Origin: Pilasporangium apinafurcum
Taxonomy: Eukaryota; Oomycota; Peronosporomycetes; Pythiales; Pythiaceae
DNA length: 64,000 nucleotides
Reading direction: 5' to 3'
NCBI GenBank assembly: GCA_001600495.1
Contig: BCKE01000033.1
Location: forward strand, 296,344 to 360,343
A program made the translations under genes and the position numbers. Shown piece after piece: positions 1-16,067 of the stretch. The notes beneath the pieces were generated by a model. The model had not been told where the DNA came from. It saw nothing but the letters and a program-made list of their open reading frames with translations, and ran no database searches. Each line of letters starts with the position of its first letter. Within the stretch, counting starts at the first letter, position 1.

Positions 1-697
1 GGCAAATAGATGTGATGCGCAGCATGTGTGCGTGGTGGGTTTTGGAAATAATAATCCCCGTTCGTGACATATAACCTCTCGAGACCCCAAAATTCTCTAA
101 CGTTGGCACCTCCCTTTCGCGTGAAATCGATTCCTGGACACAAAAGCCCACGACACTGGTCCCTGGCATCGGTTTCTTTTTGCCTGAATATTCGAGATAG
201 CAGAAATCGAGCGCATTTTGGTCCTCTCGTCGCTGTTTGCTCTTGATGGCATGCCATTTGATCGCTCGATAGGCGTATCCAGGTCGATATGTCGCTCTTG
301 ACGAGGGAAATGTGAACAGTGTGCGGCCATCCACAAACGAACTGCCATGAAGATACGCCATCGTTTTCCGGAAATCCTTGGTTGTCACTTTCGCAATCGC
401 TTGTAAGACCTCCTCTGGCCGTGTATCTGCGACTAATACACTCGATTTTAAGAGCATGGACGCATATGTAGCCTTCGTGGATGGTCGAAAGTCCAAAAAC
501 TGAGCGCGTTGACAGTGATCACCTAATTTCGTGCGTGTATCTGCCCATTTGTAGGCACAATCGGCATCTTCAATGATGCGGATGAGTTGCCCGACACGTT
601 CTTTGCCGAGCCGTTTATAGTACTTGATCTCATCGGTGTTGAGTACGATCTGTGGGAAGAACCCTTCCGTGAGTGGGAAATCGAGCGAGCGGTGCAT
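1..697 (-). CDS. START-domain protein, 5' part (runs off the left edge)
   Basis: An uninterrupted frame of 232 codons starts at the ATG at 697-695 (MHRSLDFPLTEGFFPQ) and is still open at base 1. It aligns without gaps over most of its length to the first ~230 residues of the neighbouring START-FYVE protein at 1864-4449. Shared blocks include GKERVGQL-RIIEDADC, DFRPSTKA, PEEVLQAIAKV, GTSV-GFCVQESIS and SRTGIIISKTH. That region is a START-like lipid-binding fold in oomycete proteins, and a FYVE finger would be expected beyond the edge. The two genes are tandem, same-strand paralogues, perhaps 60-70% identical by eye. No frameshift or stop is seen, so it looks functional as far as it goes. Ligand and location are unknown; binding to endosomal membrane is inferred from the family. 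Confidence 0.8.
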   Translation of the reverse strand, partial: MHRSLDFPLTEGFFPQIVLNTDEIKYYKRLGKERVGQLIRIIEDADCAYKWADTRTKLGDHCQRAQFLDFRPSTKATYASMLLKSSVLVADTRPEEVLQAIAKVTTKDFRKTMAYLHGSSFVDGRTLFTFPSSRATYRPGYAYRAIKWHAIKSKQRREDQNALDFCYLEYSGKKKPMPGTSVVGFCVQESISREREVPTLENFGVSRGYMSRTGIIISKTHHAHMLRITSIC

Positions 698-10231: not shown

Positions 10232-13200
10232 ATGGAGTTTGTGAGAGGAGGGGAAGACGACGTCTCCGCTGCGAGAAAACTCCCAAACGCCAAGGTGTCC
10301 CCGCGTGCCGGGGATCCACACGACGATGATGCGTCACTACTACAAACGGTTGACTCGACGTCGTCCCGGAGTTCGACAGTCTATGACGAAGATGACCAGC
10401 AGCCGCCGCCGCGTCCTGGTTCGGCTCCACCGAACTTGGCATTCGAAGCCTCGAATTTCTTTCGCTTTGGCGGCTCGTCGGATTTTTTCTCGCACATGTA
10501 CGCTCGTGATGTCGTTGGGGTTGTCGTAGATATAGTGAAATTAAAACTGACATCGAATGTATGTATAGGAAGTACACAACGGAGGAAGAAGATCCCACTG
10601 GGAGCAGTGGGAATAACAACGACGTCTTGCCACCCCATGTTCTATCACCGACAAACCAAGCGAGCCATCATGAGGAAAATGCATCGATCCCTCCAGTGAT
10701 ACCCCATCCACCTCGCTACGGTAATCAGGAGACGAAACCCACGGCAGCGGCGACACTCGCGCGTCCGAACTCGAGTGGAAGTGTGTCAAACCGTCGAAAG
10801 AACAGCATTGAGATGTTTCTCTCACAGTCGCCCAGTCAGGCGCTTGGTGGAGATTTCCTGAAACTAAGTTTGGATGATCGGCAGATGAGCCTACAGGAAC
10901 AGGAACGCGGTGGTACGACTCATGCGTACGCGTCGGGACAATTCGCGTTGAACCCCGTTCAAGAATCGCCCAACAACTTCAGTCGCTTGGGAGCGTCATC
11001 GTATCGGTCGCAGCCGCAACAGCAGCAGCAGCAAAGCCGCTACGCAGGTGTAATGGCGCGATCGGAAGGTGTGATGCCTCCGCCAATCCCCTCGCGATCC
11101 ATTAGCACTGGCTCGAGCCATTACTCGTATCAGCTGAGCCCACGCCGAACACCGTCAGAGGATTCGTGGGGAGGCAGCCAAGATGGCAGCAGTCAGCATG
11201 ACTCGAGCTATTATCAGGAACCCCAACACCAGATACAGGATTACTATGGAGCAACCAACCAGTCATCGTATGCAAATGTGGGGCGAACAAATCCATACCA
11301 TTCACGCCAGCAACAGGATGTTGCAGCGATGTATCGCAATACTCCCGGTATGCCTTCAAACAGCTCATATGGATACGGCACACCATCGCGAGCTCACCTG
11401 TCAAGCCAGTGGAGTAATCCTTCTAGTGGTCCGCACCACGGAATGTATGATACAAATGGATATATGAATCAGCATTCCCATCTCAGCCCTATGCAGCCGC
11501 ATCAACCACCGATGCACTATCAGCAACATCAACAAGCCTCCTTAGGTATGCGAAGTAACACTCCTGGTCGATCGAGTTCACGCCAGCATCCGACTACGTA
11601 TTCTCGCATTGCGTTGACGCCACCGTTGCCAGAGGCATCGCCGCCACATTCCCCCCGGAAGGGATTGCCTATGAACGGAATAAGCCTGGGAAATATGAGT
11701 ATGACGAAGCAATGCAAGTTTTTCCTTCATGGTCATTGTCGAATGGGTGCAAAATGCAAGTTCTCGCACCAGACCGGACAAAACCAACAACAGGAGCATT
11801 CCCTCCACCATGCGTCCCAACAGCAACACTTGATGATGTCGGGTAACCGTCAGATGATGTATCAAGGACGGATGGCTATGTCGCCTCCCACGCACCATCT
11901 AGTTCAACAGCACCATGGGATGGTTTCAGATGATGGGACGCACCAAATCAATGGCCAGTATTCACGACATCATCAGTCGAGAATGGGATCGTATCGCACT
12001 GGGGATCTTGCGAGTGTGAATGGTGTCGTTGGTTCACTAAATCTGATAGGATCATCCCAGAGTGGTGGTGTCAGCCCTTCGATGCTTTCCTCTCAAGGAG
12101 ACTCGGCGAACTTGAGCACTGCATTGAGTGTAGATGACATTCAAGGTCGAGTGTTTGCGATGTCGAAGGACCAAAATGGTTGCCGTCTTCTACAAGAACA
12201 ATTGGATTATGAAGATCGTAAAGATTTGCGTGATGTCATTTACCAGGAATCGCTGGATCATCTGTCGGAGATGATGGTAGACCCATTCGGGAATTACTTA
12301 TTCCAGAAACTACTGGAGCGTGTGAATGAAAAGCAACGGCTGGTGATTATTCGTCGCGTGAGCTCAAATTTGGTAGCAGCTTCGTTGAATCTTCATGGAA
12401 CTCGATCGGTGCAAAAAGTGGTGGAGGTATGTGCGACTTCGCCCGAAGTTATTGAAGACGAGAGCTGTGACCATGATGATGGACAAATAGCGAGGGGGCA
12501 ACGAACTACAAATCTTCCTGATATTATCGTGGAAGCCCTCAAGGACGATGCTGTGCGTCTGTGTATTGATTCAAACGGAAATCACGTCATTCAGCGAGCG
12601 CTCCAGTTTATGAAGCCAGAGTACAATCAATTTGTATTTGATGCTGTCTGCAAAGAATGTACGACAGTGGGAACGCATCGCCACGGCTGCTGCGTCCTTC
12701 AGCGCTGTTTGGATGCAGCTAATAAGCAGCAGAAGACGGAAGTGATTATGCAAGTGGAGAAGCATGCGATGAAATTGATGCAGGATCCCTACGGGAACTA
12801 TGTGGTCCAGTATGTGCTGGATTCGTGTACGGCGGAAGAAGCATATGGTGTAATTGTGAAACCGCTTGGCCATATCTTTGAGCTGTCAATCCAGAAATTC
12901 AGTTCGAATGTAATCGAAAAGTGTCTGGAAAAGGCGCCGGAGCGTGTGCGTCAAAGTTACATCAAGGAGATTACAAACTGTCCAAAGATGAACAAGATGC
13001 TGCAGGACCAGTTTGCGAATTATGTGGTGCAACGCGCGTTGTGTGTGTGCTCCGAGGAGCAGTGTGTGTTGCTTGTCAAGGCGATTCGCCCCCACTTGGC
13101 CTGCATGAAGAATACGTCTGGTGGTAGACGCATCACGGCGAGAATTCTCAAGCGCTTTCCGAATATGGATATCAGCTTGGACATGGGATTGTCCCCCACG

Positions 13201-13455
13201 GGTGAGGGAATGATGTATGACAATAACAAGGTCAGCCACCTCTCGGGTTTGAGCCTTCTTCCCCCTCCAGCCTCTGGTTATAATGGACAGCCTCAATCCC
13301 ATTTGCAGCAGAGCCACTTCAACCATCCGCATTCCCACAGCAGTTACATGCAGCCACATCCACCGCATCTTCAGGGTAGCGGTAGCCACCCATCACCCCT
13401 GGTGATGAATGACATGGTCAGTGGTGGCCTTGGCATGCACGTCAGTCGGTCGTAG
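10232..13455 (+). CDS. Pumilio-family RNA-binding protein with CCCH finger, 2 exons, 1050 aa
   Basis: Sequence-specific mRNA repressor of the PUF family. Exons are 10232-10497 and 10569-13455; the 71-bp intron has a GTACGC donor and a TATAG acceptor, giving FFSHMKYTTEEEDP across the junction. The N-terminal ~470 residues are low complexity (Gln/Ser/Pro/His). A CCCH finger of C-x7-C-x5-C-x3-H form (CKFFLHGHC...CKFSH) is at ~471-490. The PUF homology domain (~608-952) has eight repeats; the RNA-facing triads read NGCRLLQ, FGNYLFQ, HGTRSVQ, NGNHVIQ, HGCCVLQ, YGNYVVQ, FSSNVIE, FANYVVQ. These follow the canonical Pumilio order, so a UGUANAUA-like target is inferred. Repeat 5 has Cys where Arg usually stacks. 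An ATG upstream at 10025 is in frame but continues into purine-rich leader; 10232 is preferred. In oomycetes a PUF protein (M90 in Phytophthora) is linked to sporulation. Confidence 0.92.
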
Positions 13456-14021: not shown

Positions 14022-16067
14022 CTAGAACTTGTAGCGCTGAATGGACTCAAAATGCCGCACTGCTCGCGGGCTTTTTGGTCGTGTGTCGTCTAATCTCCCC
14101 GATCGACAGGCATAGATCATCAGTACAAGACTTAGCAGTGCTTTGAAGGCGGCCAGACAAAGGAAGAACGCGAAGATCACACACACACCACTCACTGAGT
14201 ACCATTGGATCATGGAGGATGAGTCAATGAGCGCCTTGGAGACCATGCGCAGCACTACGCACGCCAAGGGGAGCGATACGAGCCCAAGCCGACGAGAGAC
14301 ATGATGCGTGTGGTCCAGAATCGTATCTTCGTTCTTCCATCCGGTGAGGTCTCGACAGAGAATTGTGATGAACTTGGAGTACACTGAGGGTGGAATTTGG
14401 TTGAACTTGGTGATGAACGCATGCTTCAGCCAGTCAATGACCATTTCTGCCACCATGACCATCGTCTACGAAAATCAGTCCATGCGTATGATGAGAATCC
14501 ACACACATTTAAGATAAAGATACCCAACAGTTACTTACAGTTCCGTAGGCTACATCATTAGCATTGGACTGTAGCATGATCAGAAAGATGATTAACAGCA
14601 GTTTGAAGCGCTCAACGATGTCGCTGCAGCTAATTTGGAAAAGATTCTGCTCCTCAAACTTTTTAAATACACAGCTCTTGAGTTCTGCAAAGTTGTTGGA
14701 GATGAGTAGCGTTAATAATGAGGTGTTGCTGGAGTTGATCGCCACGTTGATGGTCACGACCTGTGCAAAGAGCAGCAACGAATGGAGAAGTATGGAAGAG
14801 AGTTATGGCCACGACAGATTATCTTCGACATGAAAAAACGCAAGTTAGATGTCAGATCAAAAGACATCATAGAAAAGTAAAGAGGATATCGACATAGATG
14901 ATGGAGACGAGAAAATCGAGAAACATGCGTCCCACACGTCGCGGCTGATACTTGGCTGTATAGTAAAGCGAATCCAACACGTCTTGACCCAATGACGAAA
15001 AGAGGCGATCGAAAATCTACACGATGTAAACATCAGCTAGTCAGAGTAGAATAAATAGATCAGTGACACTAGATCAAGGATAAGCACCAACCAACCTCTA
15101 TCATGGTGAAGAGCACATAAAGTTTGATCATGGCCTGACCTCGGATAGCGTGGTAGACGCGCGACATATCCACACGCCAAAGTACTGACGTGCTGACAAC
15201 GATGATAACGGCGACCATAAGGTCGTAGAAATGTGTCCTTCGGAAGACACGTGTGTGAAACGAGGATGTGACGGCACACCCGCAGGCGAAGAGAATACGC
15301 ATGGGCAAGTACGTGAACACGTAGAGGAAGCTGTCGAGTGCGAGCAGGACGCCAAAGACAAACATCTCCATAGACATAATATGCTGTTAGGTCACGAAAA
15401 AAAGATCTAATTACAGAATGTATGGATGTACCTGCTCGATGTTGTATGGCACAACAAGGAAGTTCTGGACACGTTCTTGGTGAACACCGTCGGTAGGTTT
15501 GATATCGTGGACACCAAAGATTTCTTTGTAGAAGAAGTCTGACAAGCGGAAGGAAGCCGGGAGAGTGGGCGCCATTTTGCTTACACTCGCGGCGGCTGTT
15601 GCTGTTTCTGAGCTGTCACCATTGATCGGAGTTGGTTCTCTACTGGGGAGTTTGGCAGAAGGTGGAGGCGACGAATTTGTTTCGATTTTTAGATTGTGTA
15701 GTCGCTGCATGCGCTGTTTGGCGGTCGTCGGAGACGGTAACGCTACTGGATCAGTAGCCACTGTGTCAATTTCCTGCCCACCACCGTTTTCATTCGTGAT
15801 TGAGGATGTTGCTGTAGCATCAGAAGAAAAAGAGGATGATGCATCTTTTGCGATTGCACCATTTGTCTCCTGACTCAGCAACCGTGTGTTCGGCAGCATT
15901 TCCATTTTCTTGTGGTTGCCTGTGATGTTCCGTCTAGTGAGTGTGCTGCCATTCGCAGTCTTAATTTCTGTCGTTGTCGCTACCGGTGTCTCTATCATCG
16001 TTGTCTTCAGAGAAGAAGAAGAAGAAGAAGAAGAGGAAGACGCTTCCGCTTGGACCATCATCGTCAT
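14022..16067 (-). CDS. TAPT1: TAPT1/EMP65-family membrane protein, 5 exons, 581 aa
   Basis: Multi-span ER membrane protein family (DUF747) linked in animals to cilia and in yeast (Emp65) to ER protein quality control. Exons: 16067-15432, 15383-15096, 15016-14890, 14789-14539, 14465-14022. All junctions keep frame. Family landmarks across exons are FRLSDFFYKEIFG, QNFLVVPYNIEQ, ALDSFLYVFTYLP, IFDRLFSSLGQDVLDSL, VVLHSLLLFAQVVTINVAINS, SNNFAELKSCVFKKFEEQN, and VAEMVIDWLKHAFITKFN. Introns 1, 2 and 4 are GT-AG. Intron 3 (14790-14889) begins ATATCC and ends AC, the hallmark of a U12-type AT-AC intron; no AG-ending acceptor rescues the frame. The N-terminal ~150 residues are Ser/Thr-rich with a polyserine tract from a GAA/TTC repeat. 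Head-to-head with MED4, 127 bp apart. Confidence 0.92.
14790..14889 (-). other. U12-type AT-AC intron (third intron of TAPT1)
   Basis: Read on the minus strand, the exon ends ...TAT GTC G and the intron starts ATATCCTCTT (7 of 8 bases of the minor-spliceosome donor ATATCCTT). It ends CCATAC, and the next exon begins TT CTC CAT TCG. Joining restores SIIYVVLHSLLLF, as expected for the family. A branch-site-like GCCATAACT lies just upstream with its TAAC 12 nt before the acceptor, the spacing typical of U12 introns. The 100-bp length is plausible. The stop TAA sits inside the branch motif, and no AG occurs between it and the exon, so a GT-AG model cannot preserve the frame. Confidence 0.85.
16012..16034. 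repeat. GAA/TTC microsatellite in TAPT1 coding sequence
   Basis: About seven GAA units on the plus strand, read on the minus strand as Ser codons (polyserine, near residues 11-20 of TAPT1). Length may vary between strains. Confidence 0.8.

Follow-up and report, generated by a model that had tools for sequence, protein, structure and literature searches.

A predicted U12-type AT-AC intron in the TAPT1 gene of a Pythium-like genome, at a position probably common to oomycetes and animals

Minor (U12-type) introns of oomycetes are already in print. According to the available part of PMC2846911, Phytophthora sojae and P. infestans each contain two AT-AC and one GT-AG U12-type introns, which were identified from ESTs. 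The genes named in that part encode a peptidyl-prolyl isomerase and ribosomal protein L31, and one AT-AC intron per species is left unnamed and could lie in TAPT1. The accessible portions of PMC10639083 and PMC5608401 report that 77% (196/253) of the minor introns of Blastocystis are of the AT-AC type, with a median length of 39 bp, and that Saprolegnia contains dozens of minor introns; PMC10639083 likewise covers those of Phytophthora. Human TAPT1 is entered in Table 1 of PMC3564746 as carrying a U12-type intron, and in the text available it is also one of 18 twintron genes, with products of 567 aa and 338 aa. In the literature covered on TAPT1 and on oomycete minor introns, we found neither a report of this TAPT1 intron in oomycetes nor one of a TAPT1 intron position shared by animals and oomycetes. 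The TAPT1 AT-AC intron described here is a further oomycete minor intron.

The analysis was carried out on a 64-kb window, by which we mean the whole stretch of DNA analysed (C33:296344-360343), from a 36.5-Mb, Pythium-like genome of 136 contigs. The window carries a TAPT1 (DUF747) gene, the features of which are listed in Table 1. A 581-aa version of the protein, with a longer exon 2, was used as the query for the Pfam and protein searches. It matched PF05346 with an E value of 6.9e-103 (345 bits against a cut-off of 25), which assigns it to DUF747, and the closest TAPT1 among the protein matches listed was that of Pythium oligandrum, a species classed in Oomycota, with 87% identity over residues 200-581. 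For intron 1, the boundaries 15431-15384 were dropped in favour of 15431-15366 because the resulting join is closer to relatives. The AT-AC segment had been called the third intron of the gene, and this was upheld, the remaining introns all being GT-AG. As a neighbour of TAPT1, a long open frame runs on the forward strand at window 10510-13455; it appears to resemble an RNA-binding protein that combines Pumilio repeats with a CCCH finger.

Table 1. Features of the TAPT1 locus, minor-spliceosome snRNA genes and candidate AT-AC joins elsewhere in the genome (window coordinates unless a contig or residue is given; a slash marks a splice junction)
Feature	Location	Strand	Basis
TAPT1 (DUF747) gene, five exons, 575 aa	14022..16067	-	open spliced frame
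TAPT1 exons	16067-15432, 15365-15096, 15016-14890, 14789-14539, 14465-14022	-	
Intron 1, GT-AG, 66 nt	15366..15431	-	join NIEQ/MFVFG, agrees with NIEQLFVFG of Globisporangium ultimum model P0003
Intron 2, GT-AG, 79 nt	15017..15095	-	sequence
Intron 3, predicted U12-type AT-AC, 100 nt, phase 1	14790..14889	-	sequence, family join, read-through in relatives at the same column
U12-type donor ATATCCTC, 7/8 to ATATCCTT	14882..14889	-	sequence
Probable branch site GCCATAAC, 12 nt before exon	14802..14809	-	sequence
AC acceptor	14790..14791	-	sequence
Intron 4, GT-AG, 73 nt	14466..14538	-	sequence
Rival in-frame GT-AG intron (TAT/GTCGAT ... TTTGCACAG/GTC), 11 conserved residues deleted	14761..14893	-	sequence
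U6atac gene	C10:186626-186755 (L002 1501-1630)	-	Rfam model, 85 bits, cut-off 33
U11 gene	C60:129752-129892 (L003 1501-1641)		Rfam model, 52.7 bits, cut-off 39
U12 gene	C3:700343-700511		52.7 bits, 0.3 bits under cut-off of 53
TBCC-domain gene (L006), AT-AC join inside match	residue 114 of 95-155		Pfam
Lysyl-tRNA synthetase (L009), AT-AC join inside match	residue 137 of 1-196		Pfam
SmD3 (L018, longer-gap pattern), join inside match	residue 84 of 6-117		PDB, solved SmD3 chains
Inositol polyphosphate kinase IPK (L007), join at match edge			Pfam
Otubain (L005), join at match edge			Pfam

The coordinates and strand of intron 3, its start in ATATCCTC, the TAAC located 12 nt ahead of the exon and the AC end were all as described in the initial annotation, and the donor conforms to RTATCCTT or a near form. 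The branch site GCCATAAC agrees with TCCTTAAC at 6/8 positions, which is weak evidence taken alone. Without intron 3 the exon 3-4 junction reads SIIYVVLHSLLLFAQVV, which matches the TAPT1 family, and translation yields YVVLHSLLLFAQ, the same as in the family, so the AC end gives the correct family join. The seamless join SIIYVVLHSLLLF claimed earlier was also confirmed. When the intron is kept in, the frame reads SIIYVDILFTFL and then runs into stops. A U12-type reading is in keeping with the donor, with the AC at the end and with the exact position, and also with the minor-spliceosome genes and the other AT-AC introns of the genome; we conclude from the sequence that segment 14889-14790 is very probably an AT-AC intron of the minor (U12-type) spliceosome (probability about 0.95). 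We infer that splicing takes place at 14889/14790 and that the predicted branch point is used.

The intron motif was compared with chance expectation. RTATCCTY alone is not rare, with 7 occurrences in the window against 5.1 expected. The donor combined with TRAY and AC gave three matches in the window, two of which are TAPT1 intron 3, against 0.52 expected, and 5 of 100 shuffled windows contained at least three such matches. The bare motif, which was not significant across the window, was rejected as evidence by itself. At the site fixed by homology, the chance of finding ATATCCTY was 3.4e-5 and that of finding an AC end was 0.06. When both ends were allowed to vary by about 6-7 nt, 60 joins were free of stops; two of them were AT-AC and none was GT-AG, GC-AG or AT-AG, and YVVLHS was restored solely by the AT-AC join 14889/14790. 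Intron 3 therefore carries a motif that exceeds chance at the place where homology demands a junction.

We examined the same site in 255 TAPT1 proteins from three overlapping sets (the best 120 of 1,609, the best 120 of 194, and 19 of 19), scoring a protein as seamless when H occupied the third residue past the ...YV column. The majority (155) were seamless, 29 read x-I-[LFM], 30 ended earlier, one stopped there, 15 gave no match, and 25 were scored as other, a class that includes some proteins that are seamless and misaligned under the H rule. The x-I-[LFM] rows, several of which are near-duplicates, comprised 22 CIL, 3 CIF, 1 RIL and 3 DIL. Read-through at the TAPT1 site and phase as CIL, CIF or RIL occurred in 26 models, including animals, and carriers of CIL or CIF include Oncorhynchus gorbuscha, two frogs, a shark, an aphid and a tick. 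DIL was read in Thraustotheca clavata and Aphanomyces invadans, both Saprolegniales, and in the oomycete-like P0043. In this phase T/GTATCCTN translates to CIL and G/ATATCCTN to DIL, and the 26 CIL, CIF and RIL rows fit N/GTATCCTN-like donors; neither C-I-L nor D-I-L, being degenerate, determines the donor DNA. In the Lagenidium model P0007 the site reads DIQF, in conflict with ATATCCT. The 1,473-bp contig of P0010, whose 411-aa frame is unbroken, is seamless over the site, as an mRNA-derived contig would be. At this site and phase four models (P0225, P0229, P0230 and P0231) show CK or CM, the reading expected of a U2-type donor, indicating that the intron class is not U12 everywhere. A class switch is possible in these four.

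The presence in animal models of the same rare intron class at the same place suggests that the intron is very old. Judged from these protein models, the TAPT1 minor intron is probably common to animals and oomycetes, and we consider it likely that it descends from a minor intron of their common ancestor. On the simplest reading, a single ancestral minor intron would later have changed subtype and, in some lineages, also class; independent gains at an identical phase and base position are possible but less likely. One minor intron would then occupy an identical position and phase in two eukaryotic branches that lie far apart.

The AT-AC intron is enclosed, with the frame kept, by a GT 4 nt upstream and an AG 29 nt downstream, and human TAPT1 is recorded as a twintron (PMC3564746, available part). 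A twintron in which the AT-AC intron and the enclosing GT-AG intron are both spliced, in competition, would be a compatible addition to the minor-intron reading. We consider this addition improbable, since the GT opens a valine codon and the CAG encodes a glutamine conserved in the oomycete models (FAQVV or GQVV), which accounts for it without splicing.

Candidate AT-AC introns were also found elsewhere in the genome. The pattern ATATCCTTN35-65TCCTTRAC matched 10 times against once for the reversed pattern, a small count, and GTATCCTTN35-65TCCTTRAC, the GTATCCTT form, had no genome match (control 2). Strict GT-type minor introns of that size were thus not found in these searches, and others with different branch sites may exist. 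The 10 AT-type and 0 GT-type strict matches (controls 1 and 2) point to a possible AT-AC bias. A longer-gap pattern (RTATCCTYN66-96TCCTTRAC) matched 7 times against 6 for its reversed control, and only the protein-supported SmD3 (L018) was counted from it for that reason. All seven matches were inspected, three of them (L017-L019) on both strands. Ten spliced candidates, eight of the ten ATATCCTT-pattern matches and two of the seven longer-gap matches, were run against Pfam, the AC acceptor of each having been picked from several by open frame and likeness. The joins that fell at or inside a match are given in Table 1. In these five introns (L005, L006, L007, L009 and L018, each at about 1501 on the matched strand) the AC lies 12 to 33 nt downstream of the branch motif, so that the 12 nt of TAPT1 are at the short end. 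Half of the Pfam queries (5/10) had no join at or inside a match: L008, L010, L011 and the longer-gap L017 had open frames yet no Pfam match at all, and the ATG11 match of L004 excludes its join. L012 and L013 had been set aside before Pfam because of unconvincing exons, and the longer-gap match L019 gave no open join.

The initial annotation proposed that the organism keeps a minor spliceosome, and named snRNAs and proteins by which this could be checked. Genes for U11, U12 and U6atac were found, U12 just under its cut-off, whereas U4atac was not found in the genome either with the Rfam model at two thresholds or with a pattern predicted from the stems of U6atac. Run at the looser threshold, the Rfam model of U4atac matched 11 of the 14 controls, none over cut-off, and zero sites in this genome, which may nevertheless contain a U4atac gene. 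The U12 and U6atac models matched none of the 14 prokaryote controls, and the U11 model, at E up to 10, matched three of them, none above cut-off. An Rfam scan of the 64-kb window gave nothing above the cut-offs. The U6atac gene has at least 8 terminal T and a TATA-like stretch about 30 nt upstream. The protein search covered CCDC84/CENATAC, U11-48K and PDCD7/59K. CENATAC has a role in AT-AC splicing, and CCDC84/CENATAC, the minor-spliceosome protein detected here, was over cut-off with an E value of 5e-21 (0/14 prokaryote controls). A U11-48K-type zinc finger was also over cut-off (E 8e-8) and provides weaker support, because its 25-residue model passes the cut-off in 1/14 prokaryote controls too, and PDCD7/59K gave a weak match below cut-off (E 7e-4). 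Together with the AT-AC introns elsewhere, these genes argue for a retained minor spliceosome, as the annotation proposed, with three of the four snRNAs it named detected.

The 5' end of U11, AAAAAGGGUA, can pair unbroken with the canonical ATATCCTTTTT donor from +2 to +11, forming 10 pairs (one G-U), and 9/10 of these positions can pair in the TAPT1 donor. The predicted U11 duplex energies were -9.0 kcal/mol for the canonical donor, -6.0 kcal/mol for the TAPT1 donor and -2.2 kcal/mol for a U2-type donor of TAPT1, and the U12 duplex was -5.1 kcal/mol with the TAPT1 branch site versus -8.2 kcal/mol with one canonical site (L004). The U6atac found reads GAGCCGAGAGA, the Rfam consensus being GAAAGGAGAGA; its C14/C13 face donor +6/+7, which breaks the usual pairing at two positions and leaves 3/5 positions paired from donor +4 to +8. 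Over the same stretch the Rfam-consensus U6atac pairs at 4/5 positions with the TAPT1 donor and at 5/5 with the canonical donor. The predicted U6atac duplex energies (-5.9 kcal/mol for the canonical and -5.4 kcal/mol for the TAPT1 donor) predict nothing specific, since the U2-type donor of TAPT1 scores -5.5 kcal/mol as well. The divergent sequence could reflect a side copy of the gene, a change in this lineage or a shift of register. According to the available part of PMC4980772, a GG14/15CC change was engineered in human U6atac to suppress a donor mutant; by comparison, positions 12-14 are changed here and G15 is kept. If real and functional, the altered U6atac would offer a natural test of the U6atac:donor pairing needed for minor splicing.

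In the mechanism we propose, the ATATCCTC donor would most likely be bound first by the 5' end of U11, and U6atac would take over the donor after U11. U12 would pair with the branch region around CATAAC, and the AC 12 nt downstream of this region would serve as the 3' splice site. Joining of ...YV to VLHSLLLFAQ would then restore a hydrophobic, family-conserved stretch of TAPT1. Rare AT-AC introns can be processed by the major spliceosome, and removal of intron 3 by this route would be in keeping with the U4atac search result and the altered pairing stretch of U6atac. We regard it as highly improbable, given that the donor is U12-like over +1 to +7, that the genome holds U11, U12 and U6atac genes as well as CENATAC, and that the same-site read-through in animals resembles T/GTATCCTN.

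The earlier statement that no GT-AG pair works was too strong. A scan that took in every donor between a point 90 nt ahead of the AT-AC donor and the intron end, with acceptors to 120 nt past the acceptor, gave 13 in-frame, stop-free pairs. The statement stands for the closest pair, 14893/14761, in terms of family match: this pair cuts 33 coding bases beyond the AT-AC intron, producing a 564-aa protein that reads SIIYVVTINV, and it provides a frame but no family match because 11 family-conserved residues are deleted. That the major spliceosome instead uses 14893-14761, making TAPT1 11 residues shorter, is scarcely credible: the intron is in frame, has no stops and ends in a pyrimidine-rich CAG acceptor, and the Globisporangium ultimum model P0003 shows this type of product, but it costs 11 conserved residues, and P0003 alone has the deletion among the 209 of 255 TAPT1 proteins placed at the site (46 not judgeable). 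GTCGAT is a poor U2-type donor, and on these grounds, the conserved residues removed and the poor donor, we take the GT-AG product of P0003 as a gene-finder artefact. The prediction that gene finders restricted to GT-AG would break TAPT1 agrees with the 11-residue deletion of P0003 and with the models of Thraustotheca (P0020), Aphanomyces invadans (P0244) and P0043, which run into the intron. The intron illustrates how gene models err at the TAPT1 site in several oomycetes.

Beyond the minor-intron reading of segment 14889-14790, a wider proposal can be framed that we hold to be rather doubtful. The TAPT1 minor intron would predate the animal-oomycete split and would have changed its GT/AT subtype, and the minor spliceosome of this oomycete would be an AT-AC specialist based on a U11:donor helix of unusual length (10 pairs), the only detected U6atac lacking two standard donor pairs.

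As far as the available parts of the cited papers describe them, the known systems compare with this locus as follows. Phytophthora (PMC2846911) is likewise an oomycete with introns of the AT-AC class and minor snRNAs; the genes named there are those for peptidyl-prolyl isomerase and ribosomal protein L31, whereas the gene here is TAPT1. The introns of Blastocystis and Saprolegnia (PMC10639083, PMC5608401) are also stramenopile minor introns, those of Blastocystis being far shorter than the 100 nt of TAPT1 intron 3. In human TAPT1 (PMC3564746) the gene is the same, and the animal models point to a T/GTATCCTN donor that is U12-like and agrees in position and phase, the position being taken from these animal models and not from human coordinates; the intron is AT-AC here, whereas in animals it is apparently GT-type.
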